Shown here one piece after another: positions 8,600-35,293 of a DNA stretch of 38,670 nt. Under the pieces are notes generated by a model that worked only from the letters and a program-made list of their open reading frames with translations, did not search any database and had not been told where the DNA came from. The DNA is from Rhodocyclaceae bacterium (GTDB taxonomy: Bacteria; Pseudomonadota; Gammaproteobacteria; Burkholderiales; Rhodocyclaceae): positions 1-38,670 of the forward strand of contig JAGRGB010000045.1 of the NCBI GenBank assembly GCA_020445745.1, written 5' to 3'. Made by a program: the position numbers and the translations under genes. Every line of letters begins with the position of its first letter. The stretch's first letter is position 1.

Positions 8600-9811
8600 C
8601 TACAGTCCCCTTGCCAGGGCCTGCACCGGGTCCAGGCGTGCGGCGCGCCGGGCGGGCAGCGTGCCGAATCCCATGCCGGTGGCGAGTGCGGTGGCCAGAC
8701 CGGCGATCACCGCCCACGACGGCGGGTACGCCGGCAGATCGGGAAACGTCGCCCGCAGCACCGCGGCGCCGGCGAATCCGAGGCACTCGCCGATCGCGGC
8801 GCCGGCCAGCGACAGCATCGCCGCCTCGGCCAGAAAGGCACGCCGGATCACCATTGGCGCCGCGCCGAGCGCCTTGAGCAGGCCGATCTCGCCGGTCCGC
8901 TGGGTCACCGACACCAGCATCACGTTCATCACCAGGATGCCGGCGACCGCCAGGCTGATGGCGGCAATGCCGGCGACGGCAAGGGTCAGGGCGGCCAGGA
9001 TGCGGTCGAAGGTGCCGACCACCGCATCCTGGGTCAGCAACGTGACGTCGCGCTCGCCGTCGTGGCGCGCCGTCAGGATGTTCGCGACCTGTGACTTGAC
9101 CCGTGCCAGCGCGTCGCGATCGCGTGCCTCGACCAGGATGCGGAACAAGGTGTTGGTGTCGAACATCGCCTGGGCGCTGGCGGCCGGCACCAGCACCAGC
9201 TCGTCGGTGTTCATGCCCAGCCCCTGGCCGCTCGACGCCAGCACGCCGATCACCCGGAAACGCCGGTCGCCGATGCGCAGCCGCGCACCGAGTGCCGGTC
9301 TGGGCCCGAACAACTCCTCGCGGATGGTGGCGCCGATCACCGCCCAACTGCCGGCCCGCTCCAGCCCTTCGTTCGGCAGGAAGCGGCCCTGGGCGAGTTC
9401 GAGACGCCGCAGGCGGGCAAAATCGGCGGTCGTGCCGACCACGTAGGACGATCGCAGGCGGCCGCCGGACGACACCTCGGCGTCGCCGACCACCAGCGGC
9501 GCGACCCGGACCACGCCGTCGGCACGCAGCAGCGCTGCTGCGTCGCGCAGGGTCAGGTCGCGGGTGGTGCTGGCGGACAGGTTGCCGATGCCGATTCCGC
9601 CGGTCTCGGTCCTGCCCGGCAGAACGATCACCAGATTCGATCCCAGCGCGTTGAATTCATTGACGACGTAGCGCCGGGCGCCATCGCCCAGGGCGGTCAG
9701 CACGACCACCGCAGCGACGCCGATGGCCATCGCCAGCGCCATCAGTCCGGTACGCAGCGGGCTGCCAGCGGCGGCCTGCAGCGCGAAGCGGAGGAGGTCG
9801 CCGATGCTCAT
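8600..9811 (-). CDS. MacB/FtsX-type ABC transporter permease (first of two)
   Basis: This 403-residue permease has the same architecture as its downstream neighbour: an N-terminal helix (GLMALAMAIGVAAVVVLTAL), a periplasmic MacB-PCD-like domain with FRVIGVLASSGQGLGMNTDE, and three C-terminal helices. It ends PARRAARLDPVQALARGL. Its ATG overlaps the stop of the ATPase gene by four bases (9808-9811), so the two are translationally coupled. The two permeases share many short motifs and probably arose by duplication. They may pair as a heterodimer, though that is inference. Confidence 0.92.
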   Translation of the reverse strand: MSIGDLLRFALQAAAGSPLRTGLMALAMAIGVAAVVVLTALGDGARRYVVNEFNALGSNLVIVLPGRTETGGIGIGNLSASTTRDLTLRDAAALLRADGVVRVAPLVVGDAEVSSGGRLRSSYVVGTTADFARLRRLELAQGRFLPNEGLERAGSWAVIGATIREELFGPRPALGARLRIGDRRFRVIGVLASSGQGLGMNTDELVLVPAASAQAMFDTNTLFRILVEARDRDALARVKSQVANILTARHDGERDVTLLTQDAVVGTFDRILAALTLAVAGIAAISLAVAGILVMNVMLVSVTQRTGEIGLLKALGAAPMVIRRAFLAEAAMLSLAGAAIGECLGFAGAAVLRATFPDLPAYPPSWAVIAGLATALATGMGFGTLPARRAARLDPVQALARGL

Positions 9812-32867: not shown

Positions 32868-33516
32868 TCGGGCTCGATCGCGGCTCTGTGGTGCGGCGCT
32901 GGGGCTGGCCCTGGCGGTGTGCGTGGCGCCCGCGGTCGCCGGCAACCAGCAGTACGAGCCGCTGTCGGCCAGCGTTCGGGCCTCGCTGCACTCGGCGGTC
33001 AGCGATCTTGCATCGCCCGAGCCGGTGTTTCCCTCCGAGGACGAGAAGCAGAACTGGCTCGAGGTGATGTCCGTCCGCCTGGCGCGCTTCATTGGTGACG
33101 ACCGCTACCGAGTCGCGTTCCTGAAGACGGCCTACTACGAGGCTCAGCGGGCGGGCCTCGATCCGCAACTGGTACTGAGCGTGATCCAGGTCGAGAGTGC
33201 CTTTCGCAAGTACGCGGTATCGTCCGCCAAGGCTCGCGGCTACATGCAGGTCATGCCGTTCTGGGTCGGTCTGATCGGCGACGGCGACGACAATCTGTTC
33301 CACCTGCGCACGAATTTGCGATACGGGTGCTCCATCCTGCGCCACTACCTGGACATCGAGAAGGGCAACCTGTTCCGGGCTCTGGGCCGTTACAACGGCT
33401 CGTTGGGCAAGGCGCTCTATCCCAGTCTGGTACTGCGCGCCTGGCGCCGAAACTGGCATTGGCGGGACGAAGCCGTCGTGGCGGGCGATCGGGGGGGAGA
33501 GACGGTCGCGAACTGA
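32827..33516 (+). CDS. SLT-domain lytic transglycosylase
   Basis: From ATG 32827, inside the end of proS, the product has 229 residues. A signal peptide occupies about 1-39 ([20 protein letters not shown]). The SLT domain starts near residue 95: the catalytic glutamate is E123 in [15 protein letters not shown], then [13 protein letters not shown] and [13 protein letters not shown], and [16 protein letters not shown] closes the fold. Such enzymes cut the glycan strand of peptidoglycan, forming anhydro-muramic acid. The 41-base overlap with proS implies coupled expression. It converges with the OsmC-like gene, nine bases away. Confidence 0.93.
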
Positions 33517-33525
33517 GTGCCCGCC

Positions 33526-33945
33526 TCAGGCCACTTCGACGATCTCCCATTCGTGCGATATTTCGGCGGTCTTGCCGAGCATGATCGACGCTGAGCAATA
33601 TTTTTCCGCAGACAGGTGGATCGCCCGCTCGACCTTCCCTTCATCCAGGCCCTTTCCGCTGATCGTGTAGACGAAGCGAATCCGGGTGAACACCTTCGGA
33701 TCGCTTTCGGCCCGCTCGGCGAACAGCTTCACGGTGCAGTCACGCACGTCCTGACGGGAACGCTTCAGGATCAGGACCACGTCGAACGCCGTACAGCCGC
33801 CTGCACCGGCGAGCAACATCTCCATCGGTCTGGGTGCCAGATTGCGCCCGCCGGCTTCTGGGGCGCCGTCCATGTTCACCAGGTGCCCGGTTCCGGTTTC
33901 GGCAACGAAGCTCATGCCGTCGAGCCACTTGATCGTGCATTCCAA
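33526..33945 (-). CDS. OsmC-family protein (YhfA-like)
   Basis: I choose the TTG at 33943-33945 because AGGAG stands seven bases before it and the product (139 residues, ECTIKWLDGMSF...) then matches E. coli YhfA in length and start. An upstream frame to 33987 is less likely. OsmC-type cysteines are at AGGCTAFDVV and SAEKYCSASIML, the pair that handles peroxides in true OsmC/Ohr. Other conserved parts are RPMEMLLAGAG and ILKRSRQDVRDC. YhfA-group function is not established; thiol-dependent peroxide or electrophile defence is a family-based guess. Confidence 0.9.
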   Translation of the reverse strand: MECTIKWLDGMSFVAETGTGHLVNMDGAPEAGGRNLAPRPMEMLLAGAGGCTAFDVVLILKRSRQDVRDCTVKLFAERAESDPKVFTRIRFVYTISGKGLDEGKVERAIHLSAEKYCSASIMLGKTAEISHEWEIVEVA

Positions 33946-34097
33946 GGTGCATCTCCTGTCGCGTCGGTGAGCGTCATTGTCGATCAATTTGGCGAAGGCC
34001 GCGAAATAGAGGGTGGGGGGGTTGACAGAATGCCGGTTGGGATAGAAAAATTTTATACACGCATAGAAAAGTTTGTAGTGCAGCGCACAAAAAATGC

Positions 34098-34126
34098 TTG
34101 TCGACGGCCGGTTGGTTGGCGATAAT
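34098..34126 (+). promoter_or_regulatory. Sigma-70 promoter of the candidate small RNA
   Basis: TTGTCG (34098-34103) and GATAAT (34121-34126) are spaced by exactly 17 bases. The region just upstream (34041-34096) is A/T-rich, with A-tracts repeated about 21 bases apart (ATAGAAAA at 34042 and 34063), as in UP elements or curved DNA. The predicted start is near 34133. Confidence 0.7.
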
Positions 34127-34132
34127 TCATCT

Positions 34133-34224
34133 CAGTCGGGTCGTCATCGACCCAAACGATGTCTCCTCCACCCTCCTCCTTTGGTGTGGATTTAGCGCGG
34201 CTCTCCGGAGCTGCGTTTTTTTTT
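34133..34224 (+). ncRNA. Candidate small regulatory RNA with anti-Shine-Dalgarno motifs
   Basis: The predicted transcript is about 92 nucleotides. It would begin almost at a perfect hairpin GGGTCG-TCAT-CGACCC (34138-34153). It continues as an unpaired pyrimidine-rich stretch with TCCTCC (34164-34169) and CCTCCTCC (34172-34179), complementary to ribosome-binding sites. It ends in an intrinsic terminator with nine T residues. A sigma-70 promoter stands at the right distance upstream. No convincing reading frame is inside. It lies between osmC (minus strand) and rplM (plus strand), separate from the rplM promoter at 34375. By layout it resembles Hfq-dependent repressor sRNAs. I cannot match it to a named family, and expression is not shown. 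Confidence 0.62.
34196..34224 (+). terminator. Strong intrinsic terminator of the candidate small RNA
   Basis: Stem CGCGGCTC (34196-34203) pairs with GAGCTGCG (34208-34215) with one G-T pair and a TCCG loop. Nine T residues (34216-34224) follow. The polarity is rightward only, and no protein gene precedes it on that strand for about 700 bases. Confidence 0.88.
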
Positions 34225-34374
34225 CCGGCGTGGGCGGGTCGTCGATGGGACGGCTCCACCTGCCGCTGCGCGAAGCGTTGTGCGCTGTGTCGGCGCGCCA
34301 ATCGAGTCCGGTCGCGCCGACCGGAGCCGGCACGCGGACGAAGCTGGCGGGCCGCGGGACGACAGGGCTCCTCA

Positions 34375-34404
34375 TTGACAGGCGGTGCAGTGCTGATCTA
34401 AGAT
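34375..34404 (+). promoter_or_regulatory. Promoter of rplM-rpsI
   Basis: A perfect TTGACA (34375-34380) is followed after 18 bases by TAAGAT (34399-34404) and a GC-rich discriminator CCGCGG, typical of growth-rate-controlled ribosomal promoters. It lies about 50 bases upstream of the rplM ATG. Confidence 0.75.
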
Positions 34405-34457
34405 CCGCGGCTTTCTGCTTAGCGGCCGGTTGAGGCCGATTCCGATCGAGGAACAAG

Positions 34458-34886
34458 ATGAAAACGTTTTCCGCCAAGCCGCACGAGGTCAAGCGCGACT
34501 GGTTCGTCGTCGACGCGACCGACAAGGTTCTTGGCCGGCTCGCAGCCGAGGTCGCCCGCCGCCTGCGCGGCAAGCACAAGGCTGAATACACGCCCCACGT
34601 GGATACCGGCGACTACATCGTGGTCGTCAACGTCGAGAAGCTTCGCGTGACAGGTGCCAAGGCTACCGACAAGAAGTACTACCGGCATAGCGGCTATCCT
34701 GGCGGTATCTACGAGACCAGCTTCGAGAAACTGCAGAAGAAGTTTCCCGCGCGCGTGCTGGAAAAGGCCGTCAAGGGAATGCTGCCGAAGGGCCCCCTCG
34801 GCTACGCGATGCTGAAGAAGATGAAGTGCTACGCCGGCGGTGAGCATCCGCACACGGCGCAGCAACCGAAAGCTCTCGAGATCTGA
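34458..34886 (+). CDS. rplM: 50S ribosomal protein L13
   Basis: The 142-residue product begins [20 protein letters not shown] and shows the L13 sequence throughout, including [32 protein letters not shown] and [20 protein letters not shown]. It assembles early onto 23S rRNA in the large subunit. GAGGAAC precedes the ATG. rpsI follows after 14 bases, the universal bacterial pair. In E. coli, L13 represses its own mRNA; no leader structure resembling that one is evident in the short leader here. Confidence 0.99.
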
Positions 34887-34900
34887 CTAGGAGCCGATAG

Positions 34901-35293
34901 ATGGCGGTGAGTTACAATTATGGCACCGGACGCCGCAAGACCGCGGTCGCACGGGTGTTCATGAAGCCGGGTTCCGGCAAAATCATGGTCAATGGCAAGG
35001 AACTCGACGAGTTCTTCTCCCGTGAGACAGGCCGCATGATCGTCCGTCAGCCACTGGTGCTGACCGAGAACGAAAGTGCCTTCGACATCATGGTCAACGT
35101 CACTGGCGGTGGCGAGTCCGGCCAGGCCGGCGCGGTCCGGCATGGGATCACCCGCGCATTGATCGATCACGACGGCGAATTGAAGGCTGTTCTGCGCAAG
35201 GCCGGATTGGTCAGCCGCGACGCCCGTGAGGTGGAGCGCAAGAAGGTGGGTCTGCGCAAGGCACGCCGGCGCAAGCAATTCTCGAAGCGCTGA
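34901..35293 (+). CDS. rpsI: 30S ribosomal protein S9
   Basis: The 130-residue protein is S9, starting [20 protein letters not shown], with [14 protein letters not shown] in the middle and the conserved basic tail [17 protein letters not shown] whose final Lys-Arg reaches the P-site tRNA. AGGAG is placed before the ATG. It is the second gene of the rplM operon, closed by a strong intrinsic terminator. Confidence 0.99.

Follow-up and report, generated by a model that had tools for sequence, protein, structure and literature searches.

The window, by which we mean the whole 38,670-nucleotide stretch of Rhodocyclaceae DNA analysed here, contains a set of closely spaced elements predicted to form a complete small RNA gene. 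They lie between a divergent gene for an OsmC-like protein and an ORF that we take to be rplM (Table 1). The ORFs over the RNA element itself are unremarkable mechanical frames, and, as the earlier note had held, no plus-strand protein gene accounts for the terminator: osmC diverges, and rplM begins only at 34458.

Table 1. Features of the osmC-rplM region, in window coordinates
Feature	Position	Strand	Basis and remarks
OsmC-like protein gene, divergent neighbour	33529..33945	-	PF02566, E 2e-17
PhaR-type palindromic box GTAGTGCAGCGCACAAA	34075..34091	+	core TGCAGCGCACAA at 34079-34090; just upstream of the -35 box
Sigma-70-type promoter	34098..34126	+	sequence and consensus scan; -35 TTGTCG (34098-34103), 17-bp spacer, -10 GATAAT (34121-34126)
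Predicted primary transcript, ~92 nt	34133..34224	+	start placed by spacing from the -10 box; fold; ncS27 likewise 92 nt
5' hairpin GGGTCG-TCAT-CGACCC, 6 bp	34138..34153	+	RNA fold; outside the Rfam family core
RF02278 core (double hairpin)	34160..34224	+	62.7 bits, gathering cut-off 50, model 1-64
Anti-Shine-Dalgarno (anti-SD) seed 1, GUCUCCUCC	34161..34169	+	identical in 13/13 aligned sequences (set preselected by TGTCTCCTCC)
Anti-SD seed 2, CCUCCUCCUUU	34172..34182	+	mostly the loop of hairpin 2; identical in 13/13 aligned sequences (same preselected set)
Intrinsic terminator, 10-bp stem and nine T	34194..34224	+	sequence, scan and fold; nine T at 34216-34224
rplM (ribosomal protein L13), downstream neighbour	34458..34886	+	ORF; adjoins osmC in relatives

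Layout and fold of the RNA gene

A consensus scan of positions 33500-35000 found three promoter-like sites, against a mean of 0.4 in shuffled sequence, and by eye a promoter-like sequence is similarly placed in many osmC-linked loci. Further promoter-like sites with a perfect TTGACA lie at 34022-34051 and 34375-34404; the latter, TTGACA-18-TAAGAT, probably serves rplM. The same region holds one terminator-like site (34194-34217), where shuffled sequences average 1.4, so the terminator pattern by itself is not beyond chance.

We found that the RNA of 34133-34226 folds with a minimum free energy of -37.5 kcal/mol (z = -4.88), as good a value being reached by 0/200 shuffles, and that three hairpins are predicted: 34138-34153, 34167-34190 and the terminator at 34194-34217. 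In the second hairpin, positions 34167-34173 pair with 34183-34184 and 34186-34190, and the loop (34174-34182) displays UCCUCCUUU; GUCUCC, directly 5' of this hairpin, is single-stranded. The CUCC stretches resemble the anti-SD of 16S rRNA.

The promoter, 5' hairpin, C/U-rich anti-SD stretches and U9 terminator all lie where the earlier note had placed them, and its account of a complete-looking RNA gene of ~92 nt, with anti-SD seeds and the build of a trans-acting repressor, is supported by sequence and fold. Its C/U-rich "open stretch" is open in part: GUCUCC is unpaired, but the rest forms hairpin 2, with UCCUCCUUU in the loop. This central hairpin and the palindrome at 34079-34090 had both been missed.

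An alignment was built from 13 sequences, the window and 12 relatives, all of them picked for containing TGTCTCCTCC. Both seeds and hairpin 2 are invariant in this set, as is to be read in light of that preselection, and in the terminator stem three pairs are changed on both sides. By pattern, the arms of the 5' hairpin (GGRTC...GAYCC or GGTCC) are found in 10/13 leaders, the window included, with G-C replaced by A-T on both sides; the RNAalifold consensus of the 13 sequences did not recover this hairpin.

Assignment to Rfam family RF02278

We found that positions 34160-34224 match RF02278, "Betaproteobacteria toxic small RNA", over model positions 1-64 of 64 (E 1.8e-10). The characteristic double hairpin of this family, the second hairpin being the terminator, is present in both fold and alignment. 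On this sequence evidence, the RNA of 34133-34224 is almost certainly a member of RF02278, and the gene is of a kind already described. The description "apparently undescribed" in the earlier note is contradicted by the 62.7-bit match, and passages of PMC4603805 and PMC5688073 give Northern and RACE data for Burkholderia members of the family. According to the same passages, four B. cenocepacia RNAs, ncS03, ncS05, ncS27 and ncS62, carry RF02278; ncS27 is described as 92 nt long and able to be processed (PMC5688073), and four Herbaspirillum transcripts are reported to match the family (PMC7011215).

It might be argued that promoter, C/U-rich stretch and terminator came together by chance, since shuffled versions of 33500-35000 yield about 1.4 terminator-like patterns on average. 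The RF02278 match, with its E value and its counterparts across families of the order, refutes this idea, whose probability is negligible. Two further families were tried and rejected, each for scoring below its cut-off: NmsRb (RF02877; 30.2 bits against 52) and ncS54 (RF02871; 27.2 bits against 43).

The genome that contains the window has four RF02278 matches, of which three exceed the cut-off, one being the copy in the window and two a pair on contig C114, ~390 bp apart. This pair (L002 and L003, at G000:C114:8590-8655 and 8980-9045) has identical RNA cores, each with its own PhaR-type box. The fourth match, on contig C214, scores 37.9 bits, has no PhaR box and may be a false positive. In a set of 61 genomes, consisting of this genome and 60 relatives from its genus, family and order (the genus includes the Rhodocyclaceae metagenome genomes HKST-UBA161, G002, and HKST-UBA163, G001), we found a match in 48/61 and a match over the cut-off in 34/61. 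The corresponding figures for an order-wide sample of 150 genomes, each at least 95% complete, were 96/150 and 58/150, and 14 control genomes gave no RF02278 match. One genome (G043; L029, L147-L153) has nine matches, mostly without a PhaR box despite the presence of phaR.

Conservation of the osmC-rplM arrangement

To follow the RNA across loci, we used the core string TCTCCTCC as a proxy and searched the region upstream of osmC as far as rplM or for 700 bp. An osmC gene is present in 102 of the first 113 loci; TCTCCTCC lies upstream of it in 82/102, and rplM lies divergently beyond in 76. Among 80 named loci picked on OsmC similarity alone, 60 have the core, 57 the rplM arrangement and 46 both. 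Named loci with the core include those of Azoarcus, Thauera, Zoogloea, Accumulibacter, Cupriavidus, Ralstonia, Herbaspirillum, Paraburkholderia and Burkholderia. The osmC-sRNA-rplM arrangement is widely conserved, and the check that the earlier note had proposed, conservation of this intergenic region in relatives, is borne out across the named loci.

Because the element lies on the same strand as rplM and upstream of it in many loci, it could be a leader or attenuator of rplM-rpsI that yields no free sRNA. Against this stand the U9 terminator ~230 nt ahead of rplM, the separate promoter-like site of rplM (TTGACA-18-TAAGAT), the paralogues in the same genome that lie away from rplM, and the published descriptions of family members as free RNAs by Northern blot and RACE in other species. 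We consider a leader highly improbable.

A PhaR-type box at the RNA promoters

The palindrome beside the -35 box resembles the binding site of PhaR, a regulator of polyhydroxybutyrate (PHB) metabolism. The account in PMC12849132 gives a 17-mer consensus for R. eutropha PhaR and a rule that counts as a box any site with at most 3 mismatches; the site at 34075-34091 has 2 mismatches and falls within this rule, and 1/100 shuffles of the 150-nt upstream region gave an equal match. In Herbaspirillum, the region protected by PhbF in footprints is described as containing TG[N]TGC[N]3GCAA (PMC3206438).

We then counted boxes in the 61 genomes, where 91/96 matches were usable (49 of the 52 over the cut-off, and 42 weaker ones). 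Within 150 nt upstream, a 17-mer with at most 2 mismatches was found at 40/49 over-cut-off matches (30 shuffles: mean 2.2, maximum 6), and one with at most 1 mismatch at 22/49 (shuffle mean 0.1); among the matches under the cut-off, 13/42 had a 17-mer with at most 2 mismatches. The C114 paralogues carry TTGTTGCACTGCAGCAT and TTGTTGCGCTGCAGCAT, placed over the presumed -35 box, and since the RNA core there begins right after the presumed -10 box, these copies are probably a short form without leader.

Beyond this set, a box with at most 2 mismatches is present at 16/27 over-cut-off copies in ten named genomes and not at 11/27; two of the 16 boxes (L278 and L304) look degenerate or out of place. 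The 17-mer is matched with 0 mismatches at three copies in Cupriavidus, of which one scores under the Rfam cut-off, and 3/4 over-cut-off copies in Zoogloea have no box. Of the 60 core-containing named loci linked to osmC, 44 have TGCRNYGCA no farther than 150 nt away and 47 no farther than 250 nt. The position of the box varies between upstream of the -35 box and over it. Three Herbaspirillum aquaticum copies (L291, L299 and L304) lack a clear PhaR box and by eye have in common an upstream stretch like GAATATCTGATAT, which possibly serves another regulator.

PhaR-type sites and phasin genes

The genome that contains the window has a phaR gene (PF07879 at G000:C102, E 6.3e-31), and TGCRNYGCACAA occurs 29 times in it, against 4 for the reversed control. 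Two sites each precede two phasin genes (PF09361), and one precedes a short-chain dehydrogenase gene near phaR, which we treat as phaB-like and which also has a second close 17-mer match. Other sites precede genes for aconitase B and for acyl-CoA ligase-like, helicase, TrkA-like, cytochrome b561-like and NMT1-like proteins; several more, seemingly inside long ORFs, may be due to chance.

A second connection with PHB emerged from the weaker RF02278 matches. In the 61 genomes, 10/42 usable weaker matches directly follow the 3' end of a phasin gene and have its orientation (L162, L176-L179, L183, L185, L189, L193 and L195); the order sample adds two (L265 and L266), L264 being the same place as L189. 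The layout of this form is CTCCTCCTCC, a hairpin, often GGTTTCA or GGATTCA, and a terminator. Because these matches score 29 to 46 bits, below the Rfam cut-off, we regard them as a related form and not as confirmed members. From their position, a small RNA would seem to form the end of the phasin mRNA. No phasin match was found beside the over-cut-off RNA loci examined, nor beside 30 RNA loci in ten named genomes. The genome of the window likewise has no phasin 3'UTR form; by eye, its two phasin genes are followed by ordinary-looking inverted repeats. Elsewhere, one phasin-type RNA (L267) has two PhaR boxes of its own and is divergent from phaR, and another (L268) lies ~300 nt from two boxes that adjoin phaR. 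The rate at which these RNAs overlap phasin 3' ends is hard to square with chance, and this provides an independent tie of the RNA type to PHB.

The box in genomes with and without phaR

phaR (PF07879) is present in 52/61 genomes of the close set, in 106/150 of the order sample and in 73/80 named genomes (37/40 and 36/40); its absence from some genomes may reflect incomplete assembly. In the order sample, a box with at most 2 mismatches was found at 26/40 loci of genomes with phaR (shuffle mean 1.9) and at 1/18 loci of genomes without it (shuffle mean 0.57). When the loci are pooled, the exact core (TGCRNYGCA) is found in the 150 nt upstream of 63/86 PhaR+ loci and 0/21 PhaR- loci (Fisher 2e-10, a value that ignores kinship). 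Counted by genome the figures are 54/69 and 0/15, and by family 16/19 and 0/9. Within families, PhaR- and PhaR+ genomes compare as 0/1 and 24/28 in f1, 0/1 and 2/3 in f10, and 0/3 and 1/1 in f43.

The correspondence has exceptions. The exact core is absent from 15/69 PhaR+ genomes, and in three families (f21, f47 and f5) phaR is present but the core is not; one genome with no phaR match (G017) lacks the exact core and yet has a site that differs from the 17-mer at 1 position. TTAGANRAT is found in 16/21 PhaR- promoters, against 1/86 PhaR+ loci; since the PhaR- promoters mostly share it, they are not independent and represent few independent losses of the box. This ATATTAGATAATTCTAATAA-like motif, seen in the promoters of L204-L221, in PhaR- genomes, and also in that of L242, lies over the presumed -10 box and may be another operator. 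Presence of the RNA itself, compared by hand in the 150 genomes, was set aside as support: it is found in 73/106 PhaR+ genomes (33 without) and 23/44 PhaR- genomes (21 without), a difference too weak to use.

These data bear on whether the palindrome is bound by PhaR, or instead by some other regulator that co-occurs with PhaR, or is a mere shared promoter feature of an RF02278 sRNA. The box-less copies in PhaR+ genomes, the differing position of the box (upstream of the -35 box or over it) and box losses that follow clades all lean towards another regulator or a shared feature. But the motif fits both the PhaR consensus and the PhbF footprint motif described for Herbaspirillum, marks the phasin and phaB-like promoters of the same genome, is perfect in the three Cupriavidus copies (one under the Rfam cut-off), and its exact core is present at 0/21 PhaR- loci. 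We judge a different regulator or a shared feature unlikely, and control of the RNA promoter by PhaR, through predicted binding at 34075-34091, likely.

Proposed role and mode of action

Taken together, our results favour, with a probability of roughly three in four, a trans-acting RF02278 sRNA that is controlled by PhaR and acts as an anti-SD repressor, coupling carbon storage to translation. Through its CUCC stretches, the RNA would pair with mRNAs for metabolism, transport and regulators at their strong Shine-Dalgarno sequences and so block ribosome loading. PhaR, bound to the palindrome beside the -35 box, probably represses transcription of the RNA. Under carbon excess, PHB granules would form and draw PhaR onto themselves; with PhaR off the promoter, the RNA would be made along with the phasins, and would then damp uptake and catabolism during carbon storage.

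Anti-SD repression is, in our estimation, a very probable mode of action. In B. pertussis, S17 is described as directly repressing a sigma-54 activator by pairing with its ribosome-binding site, and RACE, Hfq and target data are given for it (PMC11722255), so the mode of action that the earlier note had inferred has already been shown for a close relative of the family. S17 is also reported to bind Hfq (PMC11722255); hfq is present in the genome of the window, and our RNA probably binds Hfq as well. We searched this genome for the target pattern AAGGAGGAG-N3-9-ATG and found five sites against two for the control, which is not significant. One of the five precedes a gene for a sigma-54 activator (L273) and one a gene for a glyoxalase-like protein (L270), and three precede genes without a Pfam match. 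The activator gene (L273:1-1503), with its AAGGAGGAG ribosome-binding site, belongs to the class of gene that S17 targets in Bordetella. In B. cenocepacia, levels of ncS03, ncS05 and ncS27 are reported to increase in biofilms, under starvation and in medium with glucose (PMC5688073), and a review describes NcS27 as affecting amino acid and sugar use (PMC10987360).

Cloning in E. coli is reportedly what lay behind the name "toxic" in the 2012 work of Kimelman. As described in PMC4603805, growth inhibition of E. coli on cloning was seen for Burkholderia RF02278 members and is the source of the family name; ncS27 overexpression is reported to slow B. cenocepacia growth, and its silencing to speed growth (PMC5688073). 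Such observations are what one would expect of a growth-inhibiting toxin or addiction RNA. Against a toxin speak the conserved chromosomal synteny and dispersed copies of the RNA, the metabolic targets described in Burkholderia, and the statement in PMC11722255 that E. coli growing exponentially is not inhibited by S17, from which it follows that "toxic" is not a general property. We regard a toxin as very doubtful, and retain a PhaR-controlled repressor as the preferred reading.

In a broader form, to which we incline somewhat, RF02278 RNAs would be the RNA arm of the PhaR (PHB-granule) regulon across much of the betaproteobacteria, arising from PhaR-box promoters or from the 3'UTRs of phasin mRNAs, such that PhaR would sense granule formation, and broad translational repression of carbon uptake and catabolism would follow. 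What appears to be new, judging from the literature searched, is the conserved PhaR-type box that seems to tie the RNA to the PHB regulator. Among the literature matches listed, we found no PhaR-RF02278 link by title or abstract; these matches did not include a 2019 paper on NcS27 (Microbiology 165:1135) or the work of Kimelman 2012. Nor does the text of the S17 paper (PMC11722255), searched by word, mention PhaR, PHB or phasin.

Of these results, the PhaR box and the phasin 3'UTR form most deserve to be pursued. Speaking generally of its B. cenocepacia sRNAs, Sass 2017 states that the regulation of their accumulation "is thus yet unknown", and points in Fig. S3 to a shared upstream motif (PMC5688073). 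The literature covered names no regulator for the RF02278 family; our reading proposes one. The role of riboregulation in PHB production by Cupriavidus necator remains undeciphered, in the words of a 2021 review. If a PhaR-controlled anti-SD RNA exists, and phasin mRNAs end in such an RNA, both questions become testable, with a bearing on the engineering of bioplastic producers.

Comparison with known systems

The earlier note had likened the RNA to Neisseria NmsR. In structure the comparison holds well, and it is also drawn by Sass 2017 (PMC5688073), but our RNA differs from NmsRb (RF02877) in family, its score of 30.2 bits falling below the cut-off of 52. In Sinorhizobium, AniA (PhaR) is described as repressing the sRNA MmgR (PMC8401924). 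That system, likened here by description, is similar in having an sRNA under negative PhaR control in a PHB producer; unlike ours, it is alphaproteobacterial, and MmgR is described as lowering phasin levels.

The core and anti-SD sites of B. pertussis S17 are closely similar to those of our RNA, a likeness drawn from the published description. According to PMC11722255, the 5' part of S17 is nearly the same as that of a Burkholderia member, and its core is conserved as far as Aromatoleum in the Rhodocyclales. S17 differs in having a primary form of 190 nt, which RNase E processes to 67 nt, and in being Bvg-dependent (PMC11722255).

Compared with the B. cenocepacia ncS RNAs, our RNA belongs to a Rhodocyclaceae lineage with a 5' hairpin of its own. 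It is like them in its covariance match, its two hairpins and CUCC stretches, and its 92-nt form, as in ncS27, and it resembles them further in occurring in several copies per genome and in the theme of carbon and growth arrest.
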